Assembly (NCBI GenBank): GCA_921293015.1
Contig: OV121086.1
Coordinates: 47,509,402 to 47,573,401, forward strand
Source of the DNA: Phorcus lineatus
Lineage: Eukaryota > Mollusca > Gastropoda > Trochida > Trochidae
Direction of reading: 5' to 3'
Length of the DNA stretch: 64,000 nucleotides
The position numbers and the translations under genes are program-made. Below the pieces are notes generated by a model. The model was not told where the DNA came from. It did no database searches and saw only the letters and a list, made by a program, of their open reading frames with translations. The number at the start of each line of letters is the position of its first letter. The first letter of the stretch is position 1. Positions 22,730 to 55,013 of this stretch are shown in pieces.

Positions 22730-22770
22730 TAAATCAGCGTAAACCGAGATATTCGCGCATACAGCAGCAA

Positions 22771-27614: not shown

Positions 27615-27702
27615 TAGGTGCTTGTCACCTTGGTAACTTGAGCATCAGGAATTTACTCCAAGCAGTGTGTTTAAAATGCTAATTACTCTTAACTGTTTAC
27701 AG

Positions 27703-30904: not shown

Positions 30905-31926
30905 TCAAGATTTCTTGTGTGTACGCATATGTCGATCAAGACTGAATGAAAATGGAAAGCCTTTACCACACAGTTCGCATCTGAAAGGCTTGAGGCCAGT
31001 ATGAACTCTGGAATGGTATTTCAGGTTGTGGGCAGATACAAATGTCTTATCACAATGTTCGCATTTGAAGTTCTTTTCGCCGGAATGAGACAGAAAGTGT
31101 CTCCTGAGGTTAGTCACACTACTGAGAAACTTGCCACATAGATCGCACATACATGGCTTTTCACCTGTATGTGTTCGCATGTGGTTCTTCAGACTGCAGG
31201 CCTTTCCAAAACATTGCCCACAGAGCTCACACATGTGAGCCTTCTCAGAATTGTTGCTCTCAAGATGAGACAATTTATGTGCTTTAAGCTTAGCTTGCTG
31301 CTTGAAACGCTTCAGACACGTTTCACATTGATGTGGTTTCTTCTTTGAATGGTCTTGTTCATGCTCGTCAAAATCTTCTTTTGAGGGAAAAACCTGCCCA
31401 CATTCTTTGCACCTTAGGGCATCATCTTGAATACAACACTTTGGCGCATGCATTACGAGACTGCCTTGGTGGAGGAAACCCTTACCACATTTGTTGCATC
31501 TAAATGGATAATCCCTTTTGTGAATTTTCATATGACGTTCCAGTAGTATTTCTTCTGAAAAGCTATTTTTACAAAATTCACATTTATAAGATTTCTCCTG
31601 GTGGACGAGTCTGTGTGATGTTAAGTGACCAGGCTGAGCAAAGGTTTTGCCACATTCTGGACATGTGAACGGTTTCTCACCGGAATGAGTGCGCATGTGA
31701 TACCTGAGAGTGCCTGTTTGAGCAAACCTTTTCTTACATATATTACACGAGAATGGTTTTTCACCAGTGTGTGTTCGGAGATGTTCCTTCAACTTTGATG
31801 GCTTGAAAAATCCTTTCCCACAAGTTTTGCAGTAGTGTTTGAATCCCTCGTTCTGTCCCTTTGTGATGGCTCGATGTGATTCTCTAGGTTTTTGTAAACT
31901 AGGCTTCTTTGCATCAGGATCAGAGC
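30905..31926 (-). CDS. Terminal zinc-finger exon T4 (11 fingers)
   Basis: After acceptor ATATTTCAG| the exon supplies the end of a Gly codon, then S-D-P-D-A-K-K, and runs to a stop at 30905. With the leader it gives a 581-residue protein. Eleven C2H2 fingers span about residues 273-577. The first three are joined by THTGEKP and THSGEKP linkers, and fingers 8-11 form a second canonical block. Finger 5 ends in Cys-Cys instead of the last His (C2HC type). Fingers 6-7 sit in a shorter variable middle. The opening S-D-P-D-A-K is shared with T1, its closest relative. It is the most distal exon, requiring a 19-kb intron from the leader. Expected role: sequence-specific DNA binding. Confidence 0.88.
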
Positions 31927-32113
31927 CTGAAATATATGTATAATTATTCAAAATAGTTTGACCACAATATATGAAAAGACAATTTGTTCAGGAATTTATT
32001 TTACATTGTAGTCCTCTTCGCATTAGGATCAGAACTTGATATATATGTATAATTATTCAAAACAGTTTGACAGCAATATATGTAAAGACAATTTGTAAGG
32101 AAATCTATTTTTA
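31904..32113 (-). repeat. Tandem duplication of the T4 acceptor region
   Basis: About 100 bp spanning the first codons and acceptor of T4 (31904-32003) is repeated at about 32013-32113. Shared strings include 'aggatcaga', 'atatatgtataattattcaa' and 'aagacaatttgt'. In the outer copy the acceptor reads ATATCAAG|TTCTGATCC in place of TTTCAG|GCTCTGATCC. The outer copy is followed by an in-frame stop in the intervening sequence or a different context, so its use as an exon is doubtful. Confidence 0.75.
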
Positions 32114-33527
32114 AATTGTATTTTTATTTTTAGTGTTCAAATAATATTTTAGTTGCTCCTTAAGGGCGAGTACCACATCTTGAACTAGTAAGGCATGGAA
32201 AGTATAAGAATGAAGCTAAACTAACATTCATTCTTACGAAATTGTCACATGTTGTAACTCAAAGACTAAATATATACTATGAACAATCAGGGGCTAATAT
32301 TGAAAAGAACAGAGGATTATTACACCAAAGTTGTGATATATGTCTGAAATATTGATATGGTTGCATAGGTTGAGTGTCAAAAAGGCTAGTCTCTACATTG
32401 ACTTTCAAAACAATGCTTCGAGTAAAGGCCTTATAGTGTTTCAATATAGAACCTTACTGAAAATGATCAATTTTGTTGCACTGTTGTTTCAAAATTTGCA
32501 TCATTTTAAACTTCCTACTTACAAAATTTCAATGTAAAAGGGGATTCAATATGCTTCTCGAAACCTTGCTTCGTCTTAGTCTTGCCAGTTGATTGAAAGA
32601 ACCACCTTGCTGGTTACACCTTCTCAGAATCAGTTATGTTATTTGAAATCAAGCTTGTTTCCAATCGAGAATCAGAATCAAGTTAGAAAAGAAGTAGTTT
32701 GATTGATATGAATAATTTTTCAGGGTATCATCCTAATTAGATAAAAGTCTAACGGGGTTGTTTACATAATGATCTATCATATCCCTACGTGTTACTTTGT
32801 TAAATTTGGAATCATAATGTCTACAACAGTACACAATTCTTGTAATGTTTCAGTACAAGTGTTTCTACTGTTGCAGATAATGTGATCCCAAATATAACAA
32901 TCTTACATTTGTTTTCTATCTAAATCACATCTATCTCTAAAAACCCTGGACAAGTCTCTACGAGATGAGATTTATCCAAACTTGTGCTGGTGTGTATAGA
33001 TTCAAACGATAGCATCACTGTAATAGATATGTAATAAGTTCAGGCTTATAGAAGGTAAGATTCCTAAAACTATCCCTCCTCCACTAATGTATTTCACATT
33101 TGTTGATGTTTCTGAAATTATTTACATCTTATCAACCTAATTCCATTAAACGTGTATGTTTAAGAGATTTATTACTATACAGTGCTGTGAAGAACAAAAA
33201 CATGTGATGGCATGGTTGAACCAAATAGCTTATTACAACCTTTGGCAAGTTGTGCCTGGATGCAATCATGGGGTTCAAATGTGTCAATGATACGATCTAC
33301 TTGGATATAAAATTCTATGTCTAAGCCTCCCTTTTGCAAGATAAAGTTACTCATCTATAAGGGTTTCACAAAGTGAATAAAATCAACTTCCAAACTGACA
33401 CTCAAAGATGTGTGGGGTTTGTTCTATAAAGTCTTCATCTATTGCTTTTACTTTGGCAGCAAAACTCAGCTGAAACATGTGACCAGTTACAAAAACAAAC
33501 GATTATACATATCTTGAGAGCTACTGA

Positions 33528-33774
33528 GGTGAGGTGATATGGGTTTAACGACGCTTTAAAGATTATTTCACTTATTTCGCGGCTCTTTGTATTATGGCAG
33601 GGAGAAAGCCTGCAACACCAGTGTGGCTTTGCGGTGAAACCTGCAAGCATTGGCTGGAACTAGCGAACCATGGGTGGTACTGCACTGAAATTCAGCCCGT
33701 GGCGGGATTCGTTCAACGGACCTCTTGATCTGAAGCCGAACGCGCTAACCACTGCGCTATCCCGACCCCCAAAA
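33528..33774 (-). mobile_element. SINE, third copy, internally deleted
   Basis: Same family as 22409-22729, with tail 'gaggtgaggtg' at the left and tRNA head at the right (box A TAGCGCAGTGG intact). Box B is altered and about 60 bp of the body next to the head is missing. Short duplications CTACTGA flank it (33521-33527, 33775-33781). Confidence 0.85.
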
Positions 33775-33830
33775 CTACTGAAGCATATGTTTTAGATACA
33801 GAATGCTGGCTATATCTTCAAATTTGGAAA

Positions 33831-33914
33831 GGGGTGGGGGTGGGGCTCGGGGTTGTTACGCAGAGCCTGTAACCAGCGTTGTCTCTTCTTCCCCCTCTCC
33901 CCTCCCCCTCCCCA
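33831..33914. repeat. G-tract / C-tract pair
   Basis: GGGGTGGGGGTGGGG then CTCGGGG (33831-33852) fits the four-run G-quadruplex rule. About 40 bases on, 33890-33914 is an almost pure pyrimidine run (CCCCCTCTCCCCTCCCCCTC and onward). The two could also pair as a hairpin. Confidence 0.7.
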
Positions 33915-33988
33915 GCAGGTTACCTATTTTTCACCTTTGTCCTTAGAAAACTTGATCTTGGAAGAAAGTAGTGCATCATCGACATTTG

Positions 33989-34029
33989 ACTTACCTGGTT
34001 TATTTTTTTCAAACATAAACCAGGTAAGT
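33989..34029. repeat. 15-bp perfect inverted repeat
   Basis: ACTTACCTGGTTTAT (33989-34003) and ATAAACCAGGTAAGT (34015-34029) are exact complements around an 11-base AT loop. Each arm reads as a consensus splice donor (CAG|GTAAGT) on one strand. Confidence 0.9.
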
Positions 34030-34117
34030 ATTGAAGATGATTATCTTTAAACTTCATACCTCTACACTATAGTTTTAACTTAAACAAACACTTAGATATG
34101 AATTGGTGTATTACATA

Positions 34118-34254
34118 GAGGATATTTGACATTTCTCGTCGAATACCATGGATATCTCATCGAAGTAGAAATTTATATTGAGTGTAAATATATGATTTTC
34201 TATTTCACGAGATGAGATATTCATGGTTTTCAACGAAAAATGTCAAATGTTCTA
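34118..34254. repeat. Foldback repeat
   Basis: Arms 34118-34162 and 34208-34254 are imperfect inverted copies ('gatatttgacatttctcgt' / 'acgaaaaatgtcaaatgttc'; 'gatatctcatc' / 'gatgagatat'). It is followed by two ATGACATCA motifs and a small hairpin (TTTCACTGAGT / ACTCAGTGAAA), reminiscent of the element at 30189-30633. Confidence 0.6.
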
Positions 34255-35652
34255 TTTATTATGTTTCCCAAAACCCCGTAAATGACCCTAACTACATGAA
34301 TGGAGAAGCTAAAACGCTTCGCTGGCGCGGCCGTTGCATGACATCATTCAATTGTTTCATGACATCACAGACAACGTCATATGATTGTTGCATCATTTCA
34401 CTGAGTAGGATACCATTTTTATTTCACTCAGTGAAAATACGAGTTTAATTTTCACCGATAAATGGCATATTTCATCATTCTAAATATAAATAACAATAAA
34501 ATATTATTAATTTACATCACAATAGTAAATGAAAAATCTGGTGAAGCAATGCTTTTTCAGGGTGTATACCCAAAACATCCATACAAAAACAGAGGGAGGA
34601 GAGCAAATACCTTCATTGCTGGTTGAAATGAGCTTATTTTTCATTGATATCAATATGATTTAATCAATACTTAATGGCTTTGATAATTCTCAAGCTAAAA
34701 ACTTAATCATTTTGTATACTATAATACTACAACAATTAATATGCCCGGTTTGAATAACAATAGGTGATCCAACCCTTGGCAAAACAGCAACAGATTTTTT
34801 AAAACTTTGTGCAACATGGTAACCAATATCAAAACATATGCATGTAGTATAAAGATTTAATTACTTATTGTGAACTACAAATGACACTGTTAATGCTGTT
34901 TAAAAAAACCCTTCCTTTAGTAAGTTTGCAACAGTTCTTCTGAAACTGATACACATTTCCTTACAGTTTTTACATAAATATAGAAAACAAATTTAAAGAT
35001 ATGTTTTTTTTTGCATTGTGCTCATAAAACAGACATTGATGGGGAGAAAAAACAGATGAACATAAAAAATATAACCTTAAAAAAAAACCCTGTTAACATA
35101 TTAAATACATTGTAGTTGCAATGAAAATATTATTTGTTTGACTTGCATGTTAGCACGTATCAGCAATTTCTTGAAAGAAAACCTTAAAACAAAGGCACAA
35201 CATTAAATTTAGTTAAAGACAATTATTTAAAGTGTCGCAAATGAAAAATAAGTTCTTGTTTTGTTGTAAATTTGGAAAATTCAAGAGGCATCAATAGGCT
35301 GCAACTGGAATGAATAAAGATAGCTATTTCAAGGCTAAGTGGTAATAAAATGAATCAAATGCCTGATTATTTCCATGTGCAACTTCAATGAACTATGTTT
35401 GCAGTTTTATGATAAGAAAGGATATTAGTGACTCATTGCCAGAGATTCTCGGTGAATTGATTAAATATTCAACCAAAAGATATCCTTAAAAAAAAGCAGA
35501 CATGAGCTCGTATTTAAAGCATGTCCAAGAATAATTATAATTGCCAGATATAAAAAGTGGCCTACAACATTTTCAGCACTATTAGAGCTCCCAAAAAAAT
35601 TGGACTAGAACACATGGTAATGCAGATGCAATGCTAAGATACCATTTCGAGA

Positions 35653-38486
35653 TCAATTATGAGTGGTCATGTGTCGTTTTAGATTTGATAATAATTTACA
35701 TTCCCTTCCACATATTTTGCATATGAATGATTTAGAACGATTGTGAACTAGAAGATGACACTGAAGATTGTGGGAACTTACAAATGACTTATTACATTGT
35801 TCACATTTATAATTCTTAATGCCATAATGAGTCAAACGATGAATTTTGAGGCCAGTTCCAGTGGCGAAAAAGCGTCCACACAGATCGCACATATATGGTT
35901 TCTCCCCTGTATGTACTCGCATATGGGTCTTCAAACTAGACCTATTACCAAAGATTTTGCCACAGAGTTCACACATATGTATGTTTTTGGCATTGCTCTC
36001 TTCAAGATTTGATTCTGCCATGGGATAATGATTTTTCTCCCTGAACCCTTCAGCTTCAACCATTTGATTCCCTGAATTGAAAACATCAGATTTTTCAATA
36101 TTGGTACTTTTAAACTCTGCCATCTCACTCCTAGATCCCTCGAGATCAGGATTTAATTCAGTGTTGACTACAGGATTAGGATTTCCTGTCACATCAGGAT
36201 CAGATCTTATTTTCATCCTTCCTGGAATGTGTGGTTTTCCTTTTTTGTGACCTTGGAGATAACTCAGTTTATGCGCCAAAAGCCTTCCTGGACGCTGGAA
36301 CCGTCTGCGACATATTTCACATTTATGTGGTTTCTTCTTTGAATGTTCTTCTCCATGATTGTCCAGTTCTTCTATGGTGGAACAAACCTTCCCACAGTCA
36401 TAACAGTCAAAACCTTGCTCAATGAAATCTTCCTGCACATGGCCTCCAGAATCAGGCTTATCCTTCTTGGATATATCAAGATTTGTTTTTTCCTTAATTG
36501 ATGCTTCAAGATGTTTGTTGTCTGTCATGGAGTCTTCAAGGTCTCGTTTTTCTGAAATGAATCCTTTTTCTTTCACAGAGATTTCAAGATCATATCCTTT
36601 ATCCATGGCTCCTTCAGAATTAGAGTTTTGGGTACCACACTCTTCATTTGTTAACTTATGAGTCTGAAGCATTTCTGGTGCTCTGAACTTTTCCAAACAG
36701 GCTTCACATTGATGTTCCCAGCCTTCAAGAACAGATGATCCTATTGTCATGCTTCCATGACAAGACTCATCTATGTTGATGCTTTCAACACTTGAGGCTT
36801 TTACTGTGCTCTTTTTAAGTTCAGGACTTTCTATTATTGATCCTTCGACATCAGGATCTTCCTTCCTGCTGCTTCCAACATCAAATTCATCCCTGTCTTC
36901 AAGGTCAGAAGATTCTTTCATGGAATCTTCATGATCAGGCTCCTCTTTCATGTTACTTGTAAGGTCAGAATTTTCTTTTCTGCTGCTTTCAAAGCCACAT
37001 TTACCAACATAGGACTCAAGAGCATGGTTTTCTAATTTGCTGCCTTCAACATGTCTATTTTCTGAATTGCAACCATCATTAGTTAACTTATGTTTCCTTA
37101 ATAATCGTTCTCTCTTGAAAATCTTCTGACAGACTCCACATTGATAATGATAGCCATCGAGGTCAGGTTCTTCACTGCTGCAGGCTGCAACATCAGGGTT
37201 TGCAGTTGTTGAAGATTGAAGCTCAACTTTCACTTTCAACATGCCTGGTTGATGAGGCTTTCCTTTATTGTGACCATCAACATAACTTGATATATGAGCT
37301 TGCAGCCTAACAGGACGAAAAAATCTCTTTAGACAAATATCACATTTATGTGGCTTTTTCAAAGAATGTTCTTCTCCATGAATATTCAGTTCATCAATTG
37401 AAGAAAAAATCTTCCCACAGTTTTTACAAGGAACACACTCTTTCACATAGTACCTGTTTGCTCCTCTTTCTTTAGAATCAGATGTTCCTTTTTTGGAACC
37501 TTTCAGGTTAGATGTTTCCTTCATGGAAACTTCAAGATCCATTTTTTCGTTAAGGTAACCTTCATGGGTTGCCCTGTGAACCCTAAGCAACCCTGGTCTC
37601 CTGAACAACTTATGACAGACTTCACACTGATGATACTTTACCTTATCATGTATTTTTTTGTGAACATAAAGAATGGCAATTGAAGGAAAAACCTTCCCAC
37701 ATTTTTTACACATGAGTTCATTTTCTTCCCGACAGTATCTTCTGACATGCTTAATAAGACTTCTCATATGTTTAAACAATTTTCCACAGTTGCTGCATCT
37801 CAGACTTTCAATCAATGTTCTTGAATCAGGATTAGGAACCATGCACCTTTCGTTAAATTTTAATCTATGTGCCTTAAGGCTTGACGGTCTACTGAAATGC
37901 CTCAGACAAATCTTGCATTGATGTGTCTTTGCATGCTCTTGCCTGTGTATGAAAAGTTCTTCTTCCGTTGAAAAAATACTACCACATTTAGGACACTTAT
38001 AACCATGCAATTGGACACAGTACTTTTTTAGGTGTTTCAAAAGATTTTTTTGACATCGAAAATTCTTTCGACAATGTTTACATTCAGTTGGGTTTTCTAT
38101 GGTGGTCTTGTTATGAGAGTTCAAATGTCGTTCCAGTATTTCTTCCTTGGAAAAAGTTTTTGTACAGAGGGTACATTTATATTTCTTTCTGTGAAGAAGG
38201 CTGTGTGAGGTCAAGTGACCTGGTTGAGAAAAAGCTTTGCCACATTCAAGACATTTGAAGGGTTTCTCGCCAGAGTGAATACGTTTATGATAGGTAAGGC
38301 TGCCTCCATGTGAAAATGCTTTTTTACATATGCTGCACTTATATGGTTTTTCCCCAGTGTGAGATCGTCGATGTTTTATTAACTGTGACTTTAGAAGAAA
38401 TCCTTTGTTGCAAGTTTTGCAGTAATGACTGGATTCCATTTTCTTTCCTTTCTGGATGGTTCCTATTGAATCCCTCTTTGGTTTGG
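35653..38486 (-). CDS. Terminal zinc-finger exon T3 (about 20 fingers)
   Basis: Acceptor TTTTTTTCAG|CCAAACC completes an Ala codon, and the frame runs to a stop at 35653. With the leader it makes 1185 residues, the longest isoform. An N-terminal block of four canonical fingers (TGEKP/SGEKP linkers) and a C-terminal block of four match the outer blocks of T1, T2 and T4. Between lie about twelve irregular fingers. Several end in Cys for the last ligand (for example KHLKKYC, KHVRRYC) or have long His-His/Cys spacing (SYVDGH, SYLQGH, TNDGC). Two long linkers carry degenerate 11-13 residue acidic repeats around S-M-K-E-S-S-D-L-E-D. A nuclear DNA-binding protein is expected. Confidence 0.88.
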
Positions 38487-38489
38487 CTG

Positions 38490-40940
38490 AAAAAAACATG
38501 TAGAAGGTTTACTAACTTAATAATTGCAATAATTGTTGTAAACATTGGAATTGCAAGATTAGTTGATATTTTTGCACTATTTTAATGGTCCAATTGTCCA
38601 ATCACATTAACCTTGCAACTCTCCTCCATCAGTTTTGGTGCCATTACAAAAGTTATAAAAACAATTCTTCATTTTCTCAACAAAACATTTACTTTTTTTT
38701 ATAATTTAAACATCATCAGTCATAACCTGTACAAAAATGCTGCTTCTCAATCATAAGCTTTGAGATGCCTTTGCAGATGTAAACGGGTCCAAGACTGGAA
38801 CACATGGTTGAAAATGATGACCCCCTCATGGATATTTAAGGTTAATTATCATACAAGTGTGTATTGGGATCGTAAATATCCTGCATAAAGAATAAATATA
38901 TTTTGTTGTCAACCCTTGCAAACTTAATACAGTGTTTATTTCTAATGCTTGATATTCAACGTCCAAAACATATTTAACTAGCATGATAACCTCTTTTTCA
39001 TAAAATGTAATATTGCAATTATCATCAGGCAACATGCTTGACATTACTATTATAATAACTGAATTTGTTTTTTAATGCACACATTGATATTCATGCAAAT
39101 GAACAGTGTAATGATTATGAACTTTGCATGATTTTAAACTTATCAATTTAAAAAAATTAGCATTAACATACTATGATTTTCAAATAAAACATTTCAAACT
39201 ACCAACCTTTTGCCTTTGTAAAATCAAGTGGACGAGCCCATGTTATATTAGGGGCTAGAGTTGTTTCCCTTGAACTCATTTGCAAATGAAAGCTTTTGTA
39301 AAACCAACAAATATTAATGGGAGCTAAGCTAAAAGGTTGCCTGTTGATATTCAAATTTTAAAAACAAACAAATGTAACATATGGAACACTGAAGATGGAT
39401 AAATTGTGTGAACATGTCATGTCAAAATTCCTTGTGTGACTGTGACTAAAATTATTTGGTCTGTTTCAATCAGCATGCAATTGAAGTGTTTTTGGTCTGC
39501 TTTACTATTAACATTGTAGATCGTACAACACATTCAGTTTAATTTGTTATATCAATGTTTATGGATTTAATCATTTATTTTTTGATAAAGCAAAAAGTTA
39601 CTAACCATGCTTAAAATGTTAATGTGTGTGACGCCATCGTAATTTTCAATAGAAGTTCCACCCTTGACTCTCAACATTTGCATCTTTAGCTGTATACGAC
39701 CCCAATGGATACAGAAAATATCTGTTGACTTTAGGCTGCAACACTATACATTGTTTGAATAATTCTTCAACTAGTTTGGTAAGATGATTTTAAGATTACC
39801 ATTACATTCGTGAGTGTCTTACATACAAGATAGGGCCTTAAATTTTTTCCTTTTTTTGAAACCTATCTAAACTTTCCAAACAAATTTCCATTCCATTATC
39901 AAGATTAATAACATCCATCTGCCAATAGAAACTGGAAGCTGGGAAAATAGACCACACTGTGAAAGAACTTGAACACTTTGTCAATCCACATCTGTTGCTG
40001 ATGAATTTCATTACATATTTTAATGAAAAAGTCCTTGTAATGCAAGTGAAATATACATCCAATATGTAAATATTCTTCACTGTATCCAAGGCTGCAAAAT
40101 CTGGATAACTTATCCTTTAAAAATGACTTAAGCAAATCAGCTTTTTTTTTCAATTTTTTTATCAAAATTAGAATCTCTAAACAAAAAAATATAATTAATC
40201 AAAAACAGACAGCTTGTATTGTATCAAATTTTGAACTTATTATTATATATATCATTTATTAAAAATTCATATTTGTGATTAATTATTGTATACAATGATT
40301 GTTGTATATGCTCTTGTACCACCTTTTTGGTTATATGAGAATAAATGATGGAGTACTTAAAAGAATTACAATGTTGATATATTGCACCTAAAACTTACTA
40401 CCATTGAACATTTTCTCAGCTGCATATTGTCTGAATGCAATAATCTAATTTCTTGATCCCAAGATTAAGACAAAAAACAAATTTTTAACCAACCTCCACT
40501 TGGCCAGTAAATCTGTTTTACACATGCCAAAGATTAAAGACAAGATGATGCTATAAATTTAAGTTTTAATTGTTTTCAAACCATCAAAGTATTCAAAAGT
40601 AACACAATCCAACAATAATACATCTAACATAAATTGTTAAGCAGAAAATTCTTTACTTACACATTTAAAAGTGGCGTATTACTTGCTTTCTTTCGAAAAT
40701 AAAAAAAAATTTGAACTGACATAGTAAACAAGTTCTTACTTTCAATAACATGTTCTGATTGGAAAAAGGTCTCATACATCAAAAAGTACATGTATAGCTA
40801 AAAGGATCAAATTACAATCTGATAATCAAAGAGGGTAGATGAACACAAGGGACAATGACAGCAGGGTATTATGGGCGCGATTATGCTCTCTTAAGCATCA
40901 GCTGATCTTCACACAAGAACTGTCCCGTCCTTTTCATACT
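38490..40940. other. Spacer between T2 and T3
   Basis: AT-rich, with no leader-like exon, RNA gene or mobile element seen. Frames at 39838-40165 (minus) look like chance. Confidence 0.5.
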
Positions 40941-40944
40941 GCCA

Positions 40945-41340
40945 TTCATCTTGACAAACGGATCTGTCCTTTAAAACAAAATGGTACCTTTGGTACTGAC
41001 ATTTACAGAGGACACACCTATCACTTTGGTACTGACATTTACAGAGGACACACCTATCACTTGTACTTGTACTGGTACTGACATTTATGATGAGAAACAT
41101 AAACCTAGAAACAAATTAGCTCCTTTGGTAGTGTCAAATAGGAAAAGATAAAGATCTGTCCTTATAATAGTGATGGTTACGAATGACACACAGTTCTGCC
41201 CTATTGATTGGTAATTATGGAAAAGCAACAGATTTATCCTTTTCATAATGTAATTTCAATGGGAAACAGATTGAATCCTAGAGACAATTAAGTTCCTTCG
41301 ATATTGTCATTTACATAGAGAAACAAATCTGCCACATTAA
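40945..41340. repeat. Degenerate tandem array with a perfect 36-bp duplication
   Basis: A 36-base unit beginning CTTTGGTACTGACATTTAC is repeated exactly at 40988-41023 and 41024-41059. Around it, decayed relatives of the theme 'cctttggta.tgacatttaca.agaaaca..tctgtcc' recur to 41335. The array begins just past the T2 stop and would be its 3' UTR or flank. Confidence 0.75.
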
Positions 41341-41383
41341 TATTGTTAAAATGGATGATAAATGGACGAGCTTTTCCTATGAA

Positions 41384-42678
41384 TCAGGATATGGAAGGGT
41401 TGCTGGGAGGAAAGACAATATGTCCAGTTCTCATATGTACATTCATGTGACGATCAAAGGTACTCGAGGCCAAGGTCCTACTACAAATTTTGCATGTAAA
41501 TGTTTTAGGGCGATTATGTGTTTGGAAATGAATCTGTAGTTTACGGATATTGAGAAATGATTTGTCACACTGGTTACATTTAAAGTTCTTGATGCCAGCA
41601 TGAGACAAACAATGTTCTTTAAGAACAGAAGAACTTGTGAAACACTTTCCACATAAATCGCACATGTATGGCTTCTCCCCTGTATGAGTCAACATGTGTT
41701 TCTTCAAGCTGTATGCATTGCACAAGACTTTATCACAGAGCTCACACACTTTGGACTTTGCCTCTGTATCACTTTTAGGTTTTTCACTGATTGAACTTTG
41801 GACATCAAGTGTTATCATGCAGTCTTCAAGATTGAGTCCTTCACTTGGAAGCCCCCCGCTGTCAAGGAAAGACTTTTCAAAAGTTGTATAAACTTCAACA
41901 TCCTGTTGTACAATTGAATTATCTTGCACAAAGCATGTTTTTGTATGCCGCCTAAAAGTGTATCGCGTTGCAAATTTCTTTCCACACTTTCCACACATGA
42001 CTTGCTTTTCATTTTTCTGGACTTCTTGTTTAGGTTTTCCATCATCATACCCATGCCTCTTAACCTTATGTTCCTTTAACTTGGACGGATATGCAAATCG
42101 CCTAGGACAGATATGACATTCAAGAAGCTTTTCCTTTGGATGTTCTTTCCTATGTCTCTTAACTTGCTCCTTGTCATGACAAAGCTCTCCACACTTACTG
42201 CACGAGATGGGGTAATTTTTTCTATGGATTTTCATGTGCTGTTCAAGTATAATTTCTTCTGTGAAGTATCTGGTACACTGAGAACATTTGAATTTCTTCA
42301 AATGAACAAGACTGTGAGATGTCAATTGACCAGACTGAGTAAAACATTTCCCGCATTCATGACATTTGAATGGTTTCTCACCGGTATGAATGCGGATGTG
42401 GTACTTTAAATTACTTTCATAAGTAAAGGATTTGTCACAAATGCCACACTTTGATTTTTTTTTCTTTTTACCCTTTTTATCCTTTTTACCCTGTTCATCC
42501 TGGTTATCATCGTCGTGCGAACGTTGATGTTGGAACAAGTCTGATGCTCTTTCAAATCCTATCTCACAAAATTTGCATTTATAATTCAATTCTTTGCCTT
42601 CTTCCTTTCTCTCAGTCTTTTGTGATTCAAGCTTGGATTCAAGTTCATTAGTCTCCACCTTTTCATCTTGCTCTGAGT
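41384..42678 (-). CDS. Terminal zinc-finger exon T2 (11 fingers)
   Basis: Acceptor ATATTTCAG|ACTCAG completes an Asp codon (D-S-E-Q-D-E-K), then the frame is open to a stop at 41384. With the leader it gives 672 residues. Fingers 1-4 correspond to the N-terminal block, but finger 1 is followed by a Lys-rich linker (KKDKKGKKKKKSK) in place of a TGEKP linker. Fingers 5-7 are a short middle, with finger 7 ending in Cys. Fingers 8-11 are the C-terminal block, the last one a residue short. The Lys-rich stretch may serve as a nuclear localisation signal. No canonical AATAAA was seen near the stop. It is the most diverged of the four arrays. Confidence 0.87.
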
Positions 42679-44571: not shown

Positions 44572-44652
44572 TGTAAATAAAGGAGTGAGTGAGATATTTT
44601 TCAACGCCGCCAGGGCAATATTTCAGCCATTAGCTGCGTGTAAATAAAGGAG
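44572..44652. mobile_element. 53-bp SINE-tail remnant with 14-bp TSDs
   Basis: TGTAAATAAAGGAG occurs exactly at 44572-44585 and 44639-44652. Between them 'tgagtgagatatttttcaac', 'gccgcc', 'gcaatatttcagcca' resembles the 3' end of gastropod SINEs (gtgagtgag...acgccgc...gcaatattccagc). A very short, perhaps 5'-truncated insertion. Confidence 0.75.
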
Positions 44653-45060
44653 CACAACAAGAAATTTGTAAACAGATAGACTCACGGTTTTAATACTCCC
44701 ACAAAAACATGTTTAAAGAATGATAACAAAACACAACATCATTAGCAATCTGTACCTAACATAATGCAAATGTAAAATGTTTGAATAATATATATGTACA
44801 AAGGTCCATGAAATAAAAGGACTTTTGACTTCATTGCAACAAAACACTTCATACATATTTATTAAAATGTAAAACAATATAATCACAACAAAAACACTAT
44901 TTAGTTTAACATCTTGTAATATATTAATCAATCAAAATATCTTCATTAGTTCTTTGTGATTGTCAATCAATTACCAATTACAAAAAAATCTTATATCAAG
45001 AACATGGTTCAAGAGTTTCCATATTAAATGGATATTCAATATTGGCCACACACACATAAA

Positions 45061-45082
45061 TATATATATATATATATATATA
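45061..45082. repeat. (TA)n microsatellite
   Basis: Eleven TA units. Confidence 0.95.
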
Positions 45083-45839
45083 CAATTAATACTTTTGAAA
45101 ATGATTTACATTTACATTTATATGCCATATCAAAAAAAACACAAGTTTCTTTACCTTCTATTATCTATTATCAATAATATCAAATTGATTAGACATTTAA
45201 AAATCCATTAAAAAATATGGGTTTAGGGTATACATACAGCTGGACAAGATAAAGAAAATGGTTAATAACTATCGTGAAATTATCAAATGAATAGATACTC
45301 AATGGTCTTGTCTCAATTTCCTAAATGCATACATAGAGAAGCTGTTGCTTATAAGCAAAATTAACAAGGGTCAAAAAGCAAAAATTATTTCTTTCAAAGT
45401 AGAATTGGAGCTGCACCCTCATATGGTAACTAGCCGGCCAATTACGAATATTATATATATATGTTGTCAAGTTATTGGTTGAAAGCTGTTTTCTTAATAG
45501 AGAAATTGACAATACATTGCGAAACATTATGACAATCATTATTTTGTTGTTAACCTTGACATTTTTTATTGGGAGGCCAAAACAATGATAATTTGTTATA
45601 CTAAACTTTTCCTGGCCACTATCTGTTAAATTGTCCATGAAACTGGCTGTCAGGAAGCAGTAATTGTCCCAAATGACCATCTTGCAACCGACAGTCTCTA
45701 TCAATGATCACAAGATGTCTTAGTGTAGAAATGAAACAGTTTTGATTTGCAGCATTTACACTCTTCAGTTCACCTTATATCAAAACTTGCATCAAAACAT
45801 AATTTTTATCTGTATTTCTTGGTAATCTCCTTACAGAAT

Positions 45840-45845
45840 TTTATT
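45840..45845 (-). promoter_or_regulatory. Poly(A) signal after exon T1
   Basis: AATAAA on the minus strand, 147 bases beyond the T1 stop, would let T1 end its own transcript. This fits alternative 3' exons coupled to alternative polyadenylation. Confidence 0.5.
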
Positions 45846-45991
45846 GCTGTTTCATAATTGTTAATTTTTCATTCATCACATTCTATTTTCAAGAGATATA
45901 TGTTCACTGTTGCATTCCTTGTTCCGTATGAATGTAAATCATGGATGTGACACAATAGGCTGAAGCAAAGCTCAAGAACGCTGTTTCAGCA

Positions 45992-48099
45992 CTATTTATG
46001 TGTGAGCACGTGCTGATCAAGATTAACTGAGTAGGAGAAGCTTCTGCCACAGACATCACATCTAAACTCTTTATGACGATTGTGAACTTGAAGATGGTAC
46101 TGAAGATTGTGTAAAGTTACAAACATTTTATTGCACTGTGCACATTTGAACTTCTTATCCCCAGAATGGGACAGATGATGTCTCTTAAGGTTCGTACTGC
46201 AGGTGAAAAACTTCCCACAAAGGTCGCACATATACGGCTTTTCTCCTGTATGGGTTCGCATGTGATTCTTGAGACGATATTTATTTGTAAAGCACTTTCC
46301 ACAGAGTTCACACATGTGAAGTCTTTCCTTTGTGTTGGCCTCAGGATCAGGTTTATCTTTAAAGACAATTTCTTTCTCTTTCGCTGAATCTTCCTGGTCA
46401 GGATTCTCACTTGTGCTCACTTTAAGATTACGTTGTTCAATCTCTGACTTTTCTTCTGAGGTGTGTGAAAAATGAGTTCTTTTCTTCTGCTTAACTTCAT
46501 GGCTTAATCTATGTGCCATAAGTTTCCCCAGCTGCTTGAAACTCTTGGGACAGATATCACAGTTCAAAGAGTTGTTCTTTGAATCTTCCATGACGTGTTG
46601 GTCAGAATCAGTTTTGTGTTGAAGCTCTGAGTTCTGTTTGCTAATACAGTAGTCAGAAATTTCTTCACAATCAGACTTCTCTTTAGTACAGTTGTCGAGA
46701 TTAGGTTCTATTTTCATGGACACCAATTTTTCCTTCACAGCATCCTCAATGTCAACTTTTGCTTTGATGCTTCTTTTGCCTTTAGGATCAGGCTTTTTCT
46801 TTGCACTTCCTTTAGGCAATGTTTCAATGCTTCCTTGATCATGAATTACTGCTTTTGCGTTTCCTGGAAAATGAGGTTTCCCCTTCTTGTGACCTTCAAG
46901 ATAACTCAACTTATGAGCCACTAGTCTTCCTGGTCGCATGAATCTTCTGAGACATATTTCACATTTATGTGGTTTCTTCTTTGAATGTACTTCTCCATGT
47001 TTGTCAAGATCTTCAAAGGAAGAGCAAAAAACACTACAATCTGGACATTCAAAATGGTGTAACATATGCGTCTCAAGCTTTCCAGGATGAGAGAATATTT
47101 TGTGACAAATTTTACACCGATGCACATTTTGCTTTTCTACTTCTTGCTGTATATCAAGATCTTCTGAAGAACCAACCTTGTCCTTTTCATTATTCTCAAG
47201 GTTCTTCTCATGAGGTTCTTCACACTCAAGGTCATTCACATGCACTTCATAATCTAAACCATCATGTCCACCCTTAACTGTTTGTTCTTTTTTTCTTTTA
47301 CTGCCTCCTTCACAGTATTTCCTGACATGCCTCACAAGACTTCTCCGATGAGCAAAATACATACCACAATCCTCACACCTAAGACTCTCTTTCTTTGTAC
47401 CTTTGAGTGCAAAATTCCCCTTATCACAGTCATTGCGATATCGTAATTTGTGCGCCTCCAGCATTGCAGGCCGGGTGAATTGTTTCAGACAAATATCACA
47501 TTGATGTGGCTTGGTCTCAAAATGTTCCTGTTTGTGTTTGCTAAGATCTTCTTCATCAGAACAGACCTTTCCACATTTCTGACACTTAATACCATGCAGT
47601 TGGACACAGTATTTCCGGACGTGCTTCACAAGATTTTTATGACATCGGAAATCCTTTCTGCAATGATCACATTTTGTAGGATATTCTACTTTAGTGTGAC
47701 TCTTCTTATGTTGCTCAAGGATAATTTCATTTGTAAAGTGCTTTGGGCAAAGATCACATTTAAATTTCTTCATGTGGACAAGTCTGTGTGACGTTAAGTG
47801 ACCAGGCTGGGCAAACTTTTTGCCACATTCAGAGCATGCAAAAGGCTTTTCTCCAGAGTGAATACGCAGGTGGTACCTTAGAGTCCCGCCTTGTGCAAAC
47901 CCTTTTTTACAAATTTTACACCTGAACGGTTTTTCCCCATTGTGAGATCGCTGGTGCTGAACTAACTTTGAGAGTTTGACATATCCTTTCCCACAAGTTT
48001 TGCAGGAGTGTTTGAATCCATTGCCGTCTCTCTCTGACTGTTGTGATTTTCTCCTGGCTTTTTGTGAACTACTCTTCACCTTTGCATCAGGATCAGAAA
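45992..48099 (-). CDS. Terminal zinc-finger exon T1 (about 16 fingers)
   Basis: Acceptor TTATTTCAG|TTTCTG completes a Val codon (V-S-D-P-D-A-K), and the frame ends at 45992. With the leader it gives 943 residues. Fingers 1-4 form the conserved N-terminal block and fingers 13-16 the C-terminal block (HMCELCGKCF..., with THTGEKP). Intermediate fingers include C2HC types ending KHVRKYC (twice) and long-spaced ones (SYLEGH, RYRNDC). A charged Lys/Glu/Ser linker of roughly 100 residues separates fingers 11 and 12, and a further one precedes finger 13. It is the exon nearest the leader (3.0-kb intron) and is closest to T4 in its opening residues. DNA-binding role expected. Confidence 0.88.
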
Positions 48100-49264
48100 C
48101 TGAAATAAATATGCATAGGATTTACTTACTTAAATGTTGCCATTTTTCACTGGCCTTTTCATGTAAGAGGCTATATAAATGTGTTATAACAACATAAATC
48201 CAGGCGGAAACAGCGTTGTATTTTAACATTGTTGGTTTAAACTAATCTTTTCTACTGTTTTTGTTCCTGTTCATATTGGAAACCAATTGAAAATCAACGC
48301 TGAGTAAAGATGAGATAGTGAAGACAGCATGTTATAATCAATTGTTATTGAAGGGTTTTTCAAAATGTTATAACCTTCTTAAAAGAGAGAAGAAAAAAAA
48401 ATAGTTAACTTATGATTAGTAAAAACTAAACATTATTTTGAGTTGGATCATACATTTATTACTTATGCACTTAACACATAAATCTCTTTGAGCCAGAATT
48501 GACATGAAATTAAAAGATGATCTATAAAACAACAACTTAAAAACCAATAAAGAACATGGAAAATTTCAAACTGAATAGCATTTAAGAGGCAGTATCTGTT
48601 AGTTTTTAAGTAAATATGAAAACAAAAATAAATGTTACTAATTGCAAGGCAATCTTTCTATAAAAAAAGCAGTGATGGGTTAAGCTTCACAAATCCATTT
48701 GCCTTACCTAAATGATTAAAAGATCTTTATTGTTTAAAATGGCCACCAGCAGTTTCGGTTTGATATTTAATACTTTCTTCTAAGAGTACGGATAATCAGG
48801 TGTTGAGTAATCAGGCGTCAGACCCTTGAAAGATAATGCATTTGGCATCAACATATATTTACTAGGGAGTATTTGATGTAATAAAATAGTGCTAGTGCCC
48901 TTTAAGGTACTTATCTAACTTTTTAAAATCTTCAAAACCAGCAACTTACATAAGATTAGACACTATAAAAAAAATCTGTAAAAATTAAAACTACTGGTTT
49001 TATAAAGAAAAGCGCCATTGAATCATATAACAACACTATTTTAGTCTTTTTACTGATAACTCCATCAGTTTAAGACATATTCCTTCTCTAACATCTTAAG
49101 AAATGATGGCATAATGTTTATAAAGATCTATTCAGTCTGTTGTATTTGAGACAACAAAAACTTGTCCTTAATGTTTTTTATTCTTTTTATTCAACCCTCC
49201 AGTATTCATTCAAGGAAATATTATCATCCAAAAAAATAATAAATACATATGTGCACATAGCTGT

Positions 49265-49420
49265 TCCCAAGGTCCTTGGTAAATTAACCCACCCTTGTGG
49301 CTTGGTGTCCTTAAGATTTTGACAGGTAGATTACCTTTTCCATTGTAAGGGGTCCAATCTCTTCAGAATTGGCAAGAATGACCCTCTGACCTATTTACCT
49401 AGGAACAATGCTGCTGTGCA
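49265..49420 (-). repeat. Dispersed repeat, family R2, copy 1
   Basis: Its reverse complement aligns with 63095-63235: 'gggtcat.ttgccaattctga', 'caatgg.aa', 'ggacaccaagcca' and 'gggtggg.aattt' in the same order. No coding capacity; class unknown. Confidence 0.6.
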
Positions 49421-50299
49421 GGACTGCCTATCTTATGAGTATAAATATGTACAGAAGCTACAGAACAAACTTATCATGCTCTACATTATGAAGTGTCCAA
49501 TATCTAACCCTGCAGTCACTTGTTAACTTTGAAAGCCACTGTGCAAAATGAAGAATGTGACAGTTAAGCATCCTTAGCTCTTTCTATGTCATGATGAACA
49601 TCTTTGAAAATGCAAAGATGTTTAATTTGCAACATTGGTGTACAGTCATATTTTAGGACTGTCATGTGAACAAACATTTGCAATAACAAGTCAGCCCTGT
49701 ATTTGAAGTTCTAAAGCACAATGATGAAAATCATACACCAGACTCATGAATAATTGCAAACAATCAGCACATAGCTCAGCTTCCCACTACATTTTTGAGT
49801 CAAAGATTATTTCATTAGTTACCATTGGAGTAAAAATAAGGGACATAAAGCATAGTTGTCATGTACCTTTAATTCATACCTAAATAACATCAAATGAGAA
49901 CTCACACACATTGCTTATGAATATCGATCCTGTTTCTTTACCTAATTTTACCTAATGACCAGAGACCAAACAATGTGATACATATCTAAAATCACCAATT
50001 TTAAAATAAATGTTAAAACTATTGTGTATATATTTAGGCATATGTCAAAACCAAATCTAAAACTGTATCAAACTCCAAACCATTGAAATGAAGGAAACTT
50101 GCTGGCTGCTTATCCCATCTTACCATCAATTAGGACATAATACTGAAGTCAGTTTAATTCCTTGTTTGATTGGATGTTTTAGTTCTACCCTCAGAGTAGT
50201 TTTAGAACTACCCTCAAAGTAGTGCATAGTAACTGTTTTGTAACAATACTAGACCAGTTATTGGGAAATATGTAGTAGAAAGGGGAAAATAGTCATTTT

Positions 50300-50372
50300 G
50301 AAAAAAAAAGAATTTCGAAAAAAAGTGGGGGGGCTAACCCCCCCAAGCCCCCCCTGTTCCTACGCCCCTGTA
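50300..50372 (-). repeat. Transposon-end fragment (CAGGGGCGTAG terminus)
   Basis: The minus strand starts CAGGGGCGTAGGAACAGGGG and has the self-complementary GGGGGG-CTTGG/TTAGCC-CCCCC run. Such termini are common in animal hAT-like and other short DNA transposons. Only one end is visible. Confidence 0.5.
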
Positions 50373-51061
50373 TAATATCAAAGACACAACTTCTGCAGGT
50401 GGGTAATAGACATGCAATATTTCAGTAAATCCACTGTCCAAGGAATAAAAGTTTCAAAATATTCACTGTATCAAGATTTGAACTCATTCTTTTTACAGCT
50501 TCCCTCTTTGAACTTGTTTCAATGGGGAAAAAATATATAATTTTCAGTTCTGATATCGCAAAAAAACTGCCTCTAATAAGATTTAACTCATTTTCATACA
50601 AACAAAAAATATACAATTTTTAGAAATCCGAAAATATCAGAAGACACTATTTCAGAATATGGTTAATATATACATATAATGAATGGAATGGAAATGAAAG
50701 ATAACGGACAAACAGGGTTATATCCAATAGTTGCTGACTTTCTAAGACATTTCCAAAACAAGGCACCGACTATTTCCATTTCAGGATCAACACAGGTAAA
50801 CCCTGCTCATCGAGTCATAGTATGTCTTCTGTCTTCATTTCAGAATCTCAAGGAGGGAAATTAGCCCAGAAATAAAACAAACACACGACATAAAGCGAGG
50901 GTAATTTTACTTTGGTCTATTACAAATACATAACAGATGTATACCTTTCAGAATAAAAATCTGCAAAGGTCATTTTGGAAGATCATGTGCTAATTTCCCT
51001 AAGCCTTTTCTTAAACTAAACACTAAACATGTATAACAATGAGAAAGGAAGTATGAATTAC

Positions 51062-51566
51062 CTGCATCAAGTCGAGGCTTCTCAAGCAGATGTGTGATCA
51101 CTGGGTTGTTCAATGTGTAGATCTCTGAGTTGGACTCTGGCGACTCAGGAGGGTATGAAACATTGTCCACAAAATTCTCATATGTCAACTCGGTGAAATT
51201 ATTCAACAGGCTTCTTTGTTCAGTCTCTGTTGACCCATCCCCTCTGTTCTGAACACTCCCATGATATTGGTGATCTATTTGGGAGATGACCATCGGACTC
51301 TCATACTGTTCACTTTGTGGCATAGAGACCACAACTTCTGACACGTATCTCGGAGCGGAGAGGTCTTCTTCCACATAACTTGCAGCTATGGCACTCTCGC
51401 TGACAGGATACGCCCTGCTTTCAGCCACCTGCACATACTGGGTGTCCTGCAGCTGTTGACTGGTGCTGAGACTTGTGCTGGCTTGCTGGTTGGGCTGCTC
51501 TTCTTTGTTCAGCAGTTGAGATGAGATAGTTCCAAGGCTTGACCAGGCACTTGATATTGTGTCACC
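51062..51566 (-). CDS. Leader exon 3 (acidic Ser/Gln-rich linker)
   Basis: Acceptor TACATCAG|GGTGAC opens in phase 0 with G-D-T-I-S-S-A-W. Donor GATGCAG|GTAATT closes 505 bp later in phase 1. The 168 residues are rich in Ser, Gln, Glu and Val, with no domain I recognise. They resemble in composition and position the longer linker exon (56948-58001) of the divergent gene, which also ends in phase 1. Such regions commonly act as flexible or activating segments; that function is inference. This donor is the branching point to T1-T4. Confidence 0.8.
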
Positions 51567-51743
51567 CTGATGTACAAAAATAAAATTATTGGGAACATTA
51601 AACACTAAAAAACAACTTACATAGTGAAAAAACGTTTTTGGCCACAGGACTATTCTGAAATATTACTGAAAATATTATTCCACGTGTTAAATTGAATTAC
51701 ATCAAGTATTTGTGTTCTATTAAAAGATATCAAAATTCATTAC

Positions 51744-51911
51744 CTGCAATCTGACGTGAGAAGTTGCATTAACGTGAGGAGAGATCAGTTGTTGGTAGTC
51801 AGGTTTCTCGAGTTGAGACTCTGCCAAGGCCAACTCTTCCAGGAGAGATGCAGAGACAATACCGCAGCGACATCCCCTCAGAACACTTCCAACACGTTGT
51901 ATGAACTTATC
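51744..51911 (-). CDS. Leader exon 2 (shared N-terminal module)
   Basis: Between TTATTGCAG| and |GTAATG, 56 codons in phase 0/0 start DKFIQRVGSVLRGCRCGIVS. It aligns with exon 2 of the divergent plus-strand gene (DDFIMSCGIPLRLCHCGTVS): F-I, G, LR-x-C-x-CG-x-VS, and later L, L, E, Y and L are conserved (16 of 47 positions). Predicted mostly helical, with two conserved cysteines. I do not recognise it as BTB, KRAB, SCAN or ZAD. It may mediate dimerisation or partner binding, which is inference. Confidence 0.82.
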
Positions 51912-52616
51912 CTGCAATAAGAGATAGAGTCAATATTGGACCTTTGCATTTTAAAATTTTTTCTTAAGGCTAAAGCATATGTTAATAAAATATTCCCATC
52001 ATTTGATGATGATGGGGTTGGAGATTTTACAAGTGCTTCCAGCAAAGCTGATTTTGCACTTAGCCACATCATTTTAGAATTCTTGCGTGAAATAAATATG
52101 GTACACTTGAGGTTTATGTAAGTACATTTGTATATCTGTATATTTTGGTTCTGTTTTGAGCCACTTCTTGGTTAACATGAGGCTCTATTGTAAAAATGAA
52201 TTTTTTTAAATTGACGCGATAGTAAATAATTGATCCAAAAAGCAGACATAATATAACCAATTCATTTGGTAAAGATGAAAAACAAGATTTGCGTGCTGCC
52301 TATCAGCCCCTTAACTATTTTTGGCATAATTTCAATTTAGTCGGTTAATTGATTCTATTTTGTATGCTCCTGCATCACAAACAAAGTGTTGATGCATAGA
52401 GCTTTGTCATTTCAAACTGAGAGGTCATGGGCAGACTGATCTTATGGGAATAGACAATTTTCTCAGAAACATACTGAAACCAAAGGGTATGAATAACACA
52501 ATTTTCTATCCAGCATAGAAAGTAATATTGGCATTGATAATCGAAGTCCAAACATGAATAACAAAGACAAGAAAGGTAACAAAACAAAGATAAACAATGA
52601 TTGAAACTGAACTTAC

Positions 52617-52682
52617 TGTTACACAGAATCTAATGGCCTGATTACTGGCAAAATGATTACCCAAAAACATATAGTATGAATC
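52617..52682 (-). CDS. Possible 22-codon cassette exon
   Basis: A 66-bp open stretch lies between a pyrimidine-rich acceptor (TTTGTATTAG|) and a consensus donor (|GTAAGT). It is in phase 0/0, so it could be included or skipped without changing frame. It would insert D-S-Y-Y-M-F-L-G-N-H-F... between leader exons 1 and 2. The divergent paralogue lacks an equivalent, and direct joining of exons 1 and 2 aligns better, so it is at most a cassette. Confidence 0.35.
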
Positions 52683-53199
52683 CTAATACAAAGAGTGAAC
52701 GATTATTGCATATATATGTCATTATGTAGGACTTAAAACATAAGTGAGGCTGTGGTAAGATTATGACAATTTGACAAAAAGACCACTGTTACTACTTCAG
52801 ACTATTGATATAGGCTGTATTGGAGGACCTATCTTTCACTGCACCTGATAAGACATGATAATTTTCATTTTCCTATGGTTATAGACATTGATGGCAGTGC
52901 AGATATTTAATAAATAGATATTAAATTTGTAGCCTCTGTAGCAGTTTCCTGACCATCTTAATCAAGAAGGATTTTGAATTATCAGCAACATTAAATTCAT
53001 CTCTACCCCCCTTCTTTTTTAACTTTGACTGACACCATCTTACGACAGTGATGAATTGATTGTTTCTGAATAAAAATGAATTTTTTTTAATCAAGACCAT
53101 GTTGGGATATAGGATTTACATTTCATTTGTGCTGATTGTAGTTGGATGATTCATTTTTATTGATTTAGAAGTTATAAGGGCAAAACCCTTCCAAAACAA

Positions 53200-53412
53200 A
53201 ATCGGCATGAAAATGCTACAGCTAAAATAGCCATTAGACGGTGAACTTCCATTTTTAGATCACAAATTAAACCTGTTTTTTGTCCACCTTGGGAACTTAT
53301 GAGCTTTATGGTACTGATTTTCAGAGAAAGCCACCTAACTCCTCGATGAAAAAACACCATTTATAAAGGTTGACATATTTGACTCAAACAACATACTTTG
53401 TGCCCCTTTAAA
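53200..53412. repeat. Dispersed repeat, right-end copy
   Basis: Shares with 18415-18590 'tagatcacaaatta', 'aacctgttttttgtcca', 'aacaccatttata', 'gacatatttgact' and 'acaacatactttgtgcccct'. Located in the leader intron 1. Confidence 0.6.
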
Positions 53413-53422
53413 AATAAAGAAA

Positions 53423-54827
53423 CCTTGCGTACGGTGTTTTCGAGCCCCTAAGACAAACAGCGACAATTGTTATAGAATAAATATCTTTACAGTTAATTCT
53501 TATCCAACCATTATCAACATTTGTTTTTTCTTATTGAATACCTTAATCGATATAATTTACCCTTGTTTATATTGCAAGAAAATCTCCGAACTTCGAAGAG
53601 GTCAATTTGATCGCGAGTTTCGTGACGTCACCTCTTTTCTAGCCCCTCAGATTTTGTGACGTAGTCAACGGATCTTAGGTTTTCAGGGGCCGATTTCAAA
53701 AGTTCAAAATACTTTATCAGTTTCGAAAGCATAAAACAATTTCCAAAAACAGAAAAAATAACCTTTTGTACAAAGCACATGTTAAGTAATGATATGACAA
53801 CAGAATATGAGCTCTTCCGATGCATGATTACTCCATAGACAACCCTCAGCATCTTAATTATTTGTTCTCTTGGCAATTAATTTTAGATAATTATTCTTTT
53901 ATGAGATCATCTAATTATAGATTTTTAACTAAAGAATAATTATTTGCATTTACTTAAATGATATGTAGTTTGATTCCAAAAAAAATTCTTATGTTTATAA
54001 TTTCCTATCAACGCGCACCTGCGTAAAAATCCTTTCAGTTGTGCACTTCACTCGTTACAATTGATGAACAAAGTCGATAAAATGTGTAATCAGACAAACC
54101 TTTTGATAAAATTCAACATATACACAATGTACATCGTACATCGGAGTAATCATTAATAATTAAATACCATTAACTATTCAATAGTCCTCTATCTGTTGCT
54201 GTGCCACTTGTCTTGATGTCCGTGATGCGAGAGATCTGAGTTGTAGACCCTTAGTTATACGTATGAAAATGAAATCTTATAGTTCAAATAATTCTTCATT
54301 TTTTTCCCATTTTGGTGACAACAAAGGTATTTTGATTTAAATAAGTGATGATATCTGACTTCAGCATATGCATTGATCAACGACCCGACGTTCTTTGTTG
54401 GCCTTCCAAACCGAGTAGAAATAGACCAATCGCTAATGAGACGACCCCAACTGTTGATCGGCGGGCGAGTTTAACATAAGATGTCACATGATGCCAGTCA
54501 TGTATTTTTGACAGGAAGTTCATGTTCATCAACAAAAATAAGATCAAACTGTTCGCTAACGTATGGTTTGAAATGTTGGTAGCTTTTAAACATGACTATA
54601 ACCGGTTATTAGTTGAATTCAATGTATCTTTAAACGGAATAATATTTAATGGTTTAATGTCCGAAATTACAGACTTATATGAAGAAAAAAACTATTTCCG
54701 ATGATTTTGGACCCTTCCTTTAATATATCGTTACATAGTTATTTTCTAACTGATACTTTGAGAGAAATCCATGCCCGACTTTTAGGGGCTCGAAAAGACG
54801 TGACGCTCGAAAACAGGTAGCGTGGGG
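53423..54827. mobile_element. Probable non-autonomous DNA transposon in leader intron 1
   Basis: The left end 'ccttgcgtacggtgttttcg' plus 'agcccctaa' is inverted at the right end ('ttaggggctcgaaaa', then 'gctcgaaaacaggtagcg'). An internal CCCCTCAGA/TTTTGTGACG block repeats the theme. The 1.4-kb interior has no substantial coding frame. Boundaries and target duplications are uncertain. Confidence 0.4.
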
Positions 54828-54962
54828 AAAGTTTAACTCAGTACTATGCTAATTACATCTCAGATCTACAGTACCGTGGCCGAAATAGATAGGATATTCG
54901 ACCGCAGGACATTGGGTTATTCACAGAAACACTTAATACTTCGATATAAATTATCTTGTTAC

Positions 54963-55013
54963 CTTCTCAAAACATTTGCTCACGAGCTTCTCTATCTTTT
55001 CTTCCATTTCCAT
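54963..55013 (-). CDS. Leader exon 1 (start of the four-way locus)
   Basis: ATG opens MEMEEKIEKLVSKCFEK and the donor AAG|GTAACA follows in phase 0. The divergent gene's exon 1 (METVAQLQIVTEFLLRNCQE, then K) likewise ends C-x-E-K|GTAAC in phase 0, which is why this tiny exon is chosen. The context CCATGG is strong. No other ATG-bearing exon in matching phase was found nearby. Confidence 0.75.

Follow-up and report, generated by a model that had tools for sequence, protein, structure and literature searches.

A predicted lola-like locus in the gastropod Phorcus lineatus with one leader and four alternative zinc-finger terminal exons, but no BTB domain

Introduction

In the gene lola, a common region containing a BTB domain is described as being joined to unique C-terminal exons, most of them encoding zinc fingers, by both cis- and trans-splicing (PMC1947980), with one common N-terminal region being available to many C-terminal exons (PMC11426971). 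For mod(mdg4), common 5′ exons are reported to be spliced to variable 3′ exons (PMC4667647), which gives at least 30 isoforms, mostly of the FLYWCH type (PMC11426971; PMC4667647). The Tramtrack-type BTB group, to which lola and mod(mdg4) belong, is Arthropoda-specific according to the title of PMC11426971, and the main text of PMC12513265 mentions neither exons nor splicing. Here we describe a locus of the mollusc Phorcus lineatus (Gastropoda, Trochida, Trochidae), designated gene A, in which a three-exon leader on the minus strand is followed by four zinc-finger exons, T1 to T4, that are predicted to serve as its alternative endings. It is situated in a 64,000-nucleotide stretch of the assembly GCA_921293015.1 (contig OV121086.1, positions 47,509,402 to 47,573,401 of the forward strand), hereafter called the window, in which all positions below are numbered; a divergently oriented neighbour, gene B, is found next to it. 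Among the literature matches listed, none dealt with this locus or with a non-BTB leader combined with alternative zinc-finger terminal exons, which, as the search terms were partly narrow, is weak evidence of absence.

As far as genomic anatomy goes, gene A resembles Drosophila lola in having one N-terminal region and alternative C-terminal zinc-finger exons that share the same phase. It differs in that the lola leader carries a BTB domain and serves about 20 isoforms, whereas in gene A no BTB domain is found and the endings are four, with approximately 9–18 fingers each; furthermore, in contrast to lola with its trans-splicing, all four endings lie on the strand of the leader and cis-splicing would suffice. 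With Drosophila mod(mdg4), gene A has in common the arrangement of constant 5′ exons and variable 3′ exons, but the mod(mdg4) leader is of the BTB type and its endings are mostly FLYWCH, some of them on the opposite strand, whereas those of gene A are C2H2 arrays on a single strand, and the Pfam families listed for T1–T4 do not include FLYWCH. Because Pfam finds no BTB domain, gene A is not placed in the lola/mod(mdg4) family; judged by its DNA, it would work like lola without being a relative of either gene. In tandem clusters of complete zinc-finger genes of the KRAB or ZAD type each array has its own leader. Genes A and B together form a pair of this kind, in each of which an N-terminal domain of a repeated type precedes a zinc-finger array encoded by a late exon, but within gene A there are four arrays to one detectable leader. 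The UGT1 and protocadherin clusters, in which variable first exons precede common last exons, also combine tandemly duplicated alternative exons with one constant part, but are the mirror image of gene A, where the constant part precedes the variable one.

Results

The leader of gene A is composed of three minus-strand exons, which together make up one open frame of 724 nucleotides (nt) and whose cumulative phases are 0, 0 and 1. Exon 1 (55013-54963, 51 nt) provides the start codon and 17 codons, ending in phase 0 after CFEK, and is matched by a leader profile of genes A and B with E 1.2e-5. Exon 2 (51911-51744, 168 nt, 56 codons) contains the conserved core of the leader with a C-x-CG motif, ends in phase 0 and gives a coding signal in the codon-usage scan described below despite its exclusion from the training set. 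Exon 3 (51566-51062, 505 nt) is rich in serine/threonine, acidic and glutamine/asparagine residues and is closed by a phase-1 donor. Splice sites were scored using a generic weight matrix, untrained on this genome; on this scale the acceptor of exon 2 ranks second among the 1480 AGs of the locus, and the exon 3 donor at 51062 is strong, being ninth among 1367 GTs.

Four acceptors downstream on the same strand, at 48099, 42678, 38486 and 31926, are in phase with this donor, and all of them end in TTTCAG. They open the exons T1 (45992-48099), T2 (41384-42678), T3 (35653-38486) and T4 (30905-31926), all on the minus strand and each encoding a zinc-finger array with its own stop. Joined to the leader, T1, T2, T3 and T4 produce reading frames 2832, 2019, 3558 and 1746 nt long, each of which is divisible by three and has its only stop at the end; the predicted proteins have 943, 672, 1185 and 581 residues, respectively. 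The first-pass annotation of this stretch, which had recorded the phase-1 donor, the four acceptors and the in-frame joins to complete arrays, was therefore confirmed in these observations. In all four arrays the named acceptor scores higher than any other AG in the interval from the upstream in-frame stop to the first finger; locus-wide, the four are ordinary (ranks 172, 101, 35 and 133 of 1480 for T1–T4, in that order). This anatomy of the DNA suggests that transcripts would be spliced from 51062 to each of the four endings.

All four endings contain tandem C-x2-4-C-x12-H-x3-5-H fingers of the C2H2 type, and Pfam assigns 13, 9, 18 and 11 stretches of T1–T4, respectively, to zf-C2H2 (E 4e-38 to 6.1e-63). 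Over aligned codons, the T exons are 44–60% identical to one another and share one layout, in which four N-terminal fingers precede a variable middle part and a block of C-terminal fingers; T1 and T4 additionally have SDPDAK in common directly after the junction. Identities with the array of gene B are lower (30–34%). These alignments identify T1–T4 as paralogues, with an acceptor phase inherited through exon duplication. It should be noted that the same phase of the four acceptors had earlier been counted as a coincidence to be expected once in 81 cases; this calculation is not valid for paralogous endings, and was rejected as evidence. A tree of five proteins, with the array of gene B on a long branch, resolved neither of its inner branches and does not give the order of duplication.

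Pairs of T exons differ at 51–61% of four-fold sites (30–103 sites per pair) and at 23–38% of second codon positions, and all four frames are open, without an internal stop, despite near-saturated silent sites. When neutral evolution of T1 and T4 was simulated, all 100 frames were interrupted at each of 0.1, 0.2 and 0.5 changes per site, and at 0.05 changes per site 0/100 and 3/100 remained open, respectively. The first methionine of T1, T2 and T4 is found at residues 110, 149 and 78, in no case ahead of the first finger, and the open frame upstream of their acceptors is likewise devoid of methionine; these three exons therefore need an upstream coding exon. T3 is the only one with an in-frame methionine (residue 17) ahead of its first finger. 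As tblastn with T1–T4 produced no match below position 30893, T4 is the last of the series within the window. The acceptor region of T4 is part of a 109-bp tandem duplication on the minus strand (31906-32120; period 109, 2.0 copies, 84% over 112 positions by self-blastn), in the outer copy of which the exon start is still recognisable, the AG is lost at the matching place and the frame runs into stops.

DNA-contact residues of the four arrays were not significantly faster-changing than others, the mean pairwise identity being 0.40 over 32 contact positions and 0.45 over 88 further non-structural ones (P 0.23 by permutation; T2, having no finger eight, was left out of the comparison at that finger). 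The contact set of finger 3 is QGHS in T1, T3 and T4 and QGQS in T2. Both results suggest that the four arrays probably read related, not unrelated, DNA sites.

The 241-residue leader of gene A matched 0 Pfam families at E ≤ 1 and so, as previously annotated, has no BTB domain; exons 1–2 alone matched only ARMET_C, at E 0.062, below the cut-off, and the leader of gene B was scanned over the first 179 of its 419 residues. Searches of the PDB returned no match at E ≤ 10 with the leader, and seven matches, none better than E 0.86, with a two-row profile made from the leaders of genes A and B. An AlphaFold2 model of the leader, based on the two-row alignment, had a mean predicted local distance difference test score of 51.7, too poor for a fold search. 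Pattern scans for relatives gave 36 matches in bacterial and archaeal genomes and 109 in viral contigs, none of which was confirmed, and are uninformative on animals. We define the leader family here by the features found in both genes, namely homologous exons 1–2, intron 1 between K and D of EKD, and phases 0, 0 and 1.

A phmmer search with exons 1–2 of gene A against 2862 six-frame segments of the window recovered exon 2 of gene A (E 2.7e-34), exon 2 of gene B (E 2.5e-6) and exon 1 of gene A (E 4.1e-6), the next match being no better than 1.5. With this query, the spacers between the T exons gave zero matches at E ≤ 5, and the two weak matches up to that value are both located outside them; the earlier statement that no second leader copy is visible in the spacers thus withstood the search. 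As a detection control, simulated copies of exon 2 (substitutions only, no gaps) at 60, 50, 40 and 35% identity were recovered in 100/100 cases each by phmmer, and in 98–100 of 100 by default blastp. The two-row profile of A and B agrees, its best spacer match having E 0.53 at 40890-40810 with 14 residues aligned. Moreover, since the T exons are closer to one another than to the array of gene B, leader copies of the age of the T exons should be easier to find than the gene B leader, which is found. Tblastn was sensitive to its settings: at word size 2, with composition correction switched off, it matched exon 2 of gene B (E 1.9e-5) and missed gene A's own exon 2, so that the control failed, and with default settings it matched exon 2 of gene A and not that of gene B. 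For this reason the comparison of leaders is based on phmmer and on shuffled alignments.

Codon usage was scanned with a model trained on T1, T3, exon 3 of genes A and B and the finger exon of gene B, against a background of 5–20 kb of the window that was assumed, without proof, to be non-coding. With 50-codon windows on the minus strand of 28000-55400, eight segments exceeded the 99.9th percentile of the background, and these were the three leader exons, T1–T4 and one more at 41082-40912; with 30-codon windows exon 1 was missed.

Gene B is encoded on the plus strand. Its exon 1 (55736-55798) has a start codon and ends in phase 0 after CQEK, exon 2 (56375-56515) is the paralogue of gene A exon 2 detected above, and exon 3 (56948-58001) is serine/threonine- and acid-rich with a phase-1 donor, the cumulative phases of the leader (0, 0 and 1) being the same as in gene A. 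The zinc-finger exon that follows (exon 4, 58897-60018) is in phase 1 at both ends and, where its donor is left unused, stays open up to a stop at 60050, and the last exon (exon 5, 61511-62025) has a phase-1 acceptor, degenerate fingers and a stop. Intron 1 interrupts both genes at the identical site, between K and D of EKD. The alignment of exons 1–2 of A and B scores 106, which was reached by 0/2000 shuffles (maximum 46), the exons for this test having been picked after the first match; between the two exons 3 there is no similarity beyond composition (817/1000 shuffles reach the score). On these alignments, the leaders of genes A and B are homologous. That the leader of gene A is not unique had been missed earlier; this diverged copy is situated on the opposite strand just outside the span 30905-55013 given for the locus (55736-55798 and 56375-56515). 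Of the proposed lola-like combinatorial design with an unrelated leader, the DNA anatomy and the lack of BTB stand, while the idea of the leader as an isolated invention does not, given a homologue with the same phases in gene B; the interpretation is in this sense partly supported.

The homologous leader with the same phases argues that the three-exon leader is older than the duplication of the T exons. The ancestral plan was probably a leader of three exons with a zinc-finger exon in phase 1 behind it, the fourfold terminal exon being the novelty of gene A. The start codons of the two genes are on opposite strands in head-to-head orientation, with 722 bp between them (55014-55735), and a shared two-way promoter in this interval is possible from the layout. 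Three predicted products of gene B are in frame, consisting of the leader and exon 4 up to the read-through stop, the leader with exons 4 and 5, and the leader with exon 5. The zinc-finger exon 58897-60018 may accordingly be terminal, joined to 61511-62025 or skipped without loss of frame.

Elsewhere in the window, an open frame of 128 amino acids on the plus strand (27693-28079) has a clear coding signal and no Pfam or PDB match at E ≤ 1; by eye it is like a domain of the helical death-fold type. A pair of repeats at 33555-33760 and 29095-29212 is 83% identical over 118 positions, and the copy near 33760 starts like a short element derived from transfer RNA (tRNA); ARAGORN lists no tRNA in the window. 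The minus-strand open frame 22516-22794, containing GGIAQWLARSASDQEVRGSNPARG, appears to be a translated tRNA-derived repeat and not a gene. Another minus-strand open frame, at 1646-2083, resembles by eye a part of a retroelement endonuclease, with no Pfam match at E ≤ 1.

Discussion

We consider it likely, from the sequence features above, that gene A is a single minus-strand transcription unit whose one leader serves duplicated alternative terminal exons. Transcription would start near 55.0 kb, and exons 1–3 would encode the common N-terminal part of all products, made up of a short conserved leader domain (exons 1–2) and a low-complexity stretch rich in serine, threonine and acidic residues (exon 3), which may act in regulation or recruiting. 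The phase-1 donor of exon 3 would then be joined to one of the four acceptors, the transcript ending after the chosen exon, so that the endings would exclude one another and four factors would be made that share their N-terminal part and differ in their zinc-finger arrays. The endings themselves would have arisen by duplication of the terminal exon alone, after the three-exon leader existed.

Several observations weigh against this reading. T3, with its methionine at residue 17, could be made without the leader. The T2–T3 spacer contains the additional coding-like segment 41082-40912, together with the sole candidate exon running from an ATG to a phase-1 donor in the four introns (41084-41018), the antisense control also yielding one, and with 30-codon windows a segment at 33919-33830 is left unassigned, above the 99.9th percentile and below the maximum of the background. 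A first exon of 51 nt, like that of gene A itself, would escape the codon scan, and a multi-exon 5′ part would escape the ATG-to-donor search, which at its thresholds (at least 51 nt, donor score at least 7) also misses exon 1 of gene A (donor 6.66, phase 0). AATAAA follows the four stops at chance level (5, 3, 6 and 2 occurrences in 2.9–3.7 kb versus about 1.27 per kb), and separate 3′ ends are therefore unsupported. Finally, T1, T2 and T4 contain strong phase-1 donors (8/13 internal donors scoring at least 6), which makes chaining of array parts possible.

The main rival, which we regard as unlikely, is that T1 ends the leader gene and that some or all of T2–T4 are separate genes, the promoters and short, non-homologous first exons of which would lie in the 3-kb spacers. 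Such exons would escape sequence searches, zinc-finger paralogues elsewhere in animals are often tandem full genes, and T3 offers both its own in-frame methionine and the candidate exon 41084-41018 upstream of it. This candidate, however, is not only equalled by the chance candidate on the antisense strand but lies in a perfect 36-bp tandem repeat (40988-41062, 2.1 copies), which coincides with the segment 41082-40912 as well; the repeat, a twelve-codon unit that keeps the frame open, gives a false coding signal. T2 and T4 lack a methionine ahead of the first finger, the spacers lack a homologue of the leader, and T2, T3 and T4 would each have had to recruit an unrelated exon ending in phase 1.

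Chained or partly chained arrays, in which the internal phase-1 donors of T1, T2 and T4 are used and some products mix fingers of several T exons, appear improbable to a greater degree. The strongest of these donors (10.36) occur in T2 and T4, and the zinc-finger exon of gene B, in phase 1 at both ends, can indeed continue in frame to a second finger exon; the strongest internal donor, CCG/gtgaga, nevertheless sits in the codons of the TGEKP finger linker and is therefore explained by coding constraint, and each T frame reads past its internal donors as far as its own stop and has conserved fingers right up to the end. That T1 alone is used and T2–T4 are decaying remnants of duplication is very hard to credit: the dead duplicate adjoining T4 indicates that pieces of the locus do decay, and the last finger of T2 is degenerate, but the frames of T2, T3 and T4 (431, 944 and 340 codons) are intact despite the near-saturated silent sites.

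Taken together, genes A and B may be read as follows, a picture that we hold with confidence and doubt in about equal measure. A leader domain without a Pfam description would define a zinc-finger family of this lineage, one member of which would have become combinatorial through duplication of its terminal exon only, producing four factors that share an interaction part and whose DNA targets are different yet related; it would be lola-like without BTB, and would stand beside a sister gene that perhaps shares its promoter and chooses between two zinc-finger exons.

Should transcripts confirm the alternative endings of gene A, one leader would be seen to furnish a set of DNA-binding proteins in an animal outside the BTB design. 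The lola-type design would then be independent of BTB, and duplicating a terminal exon would be enough for it to arise. Gene B, whose leader is of the same kind and whose end is simpler, pictures the likely starting state, and a comparison of related species could date the steps.

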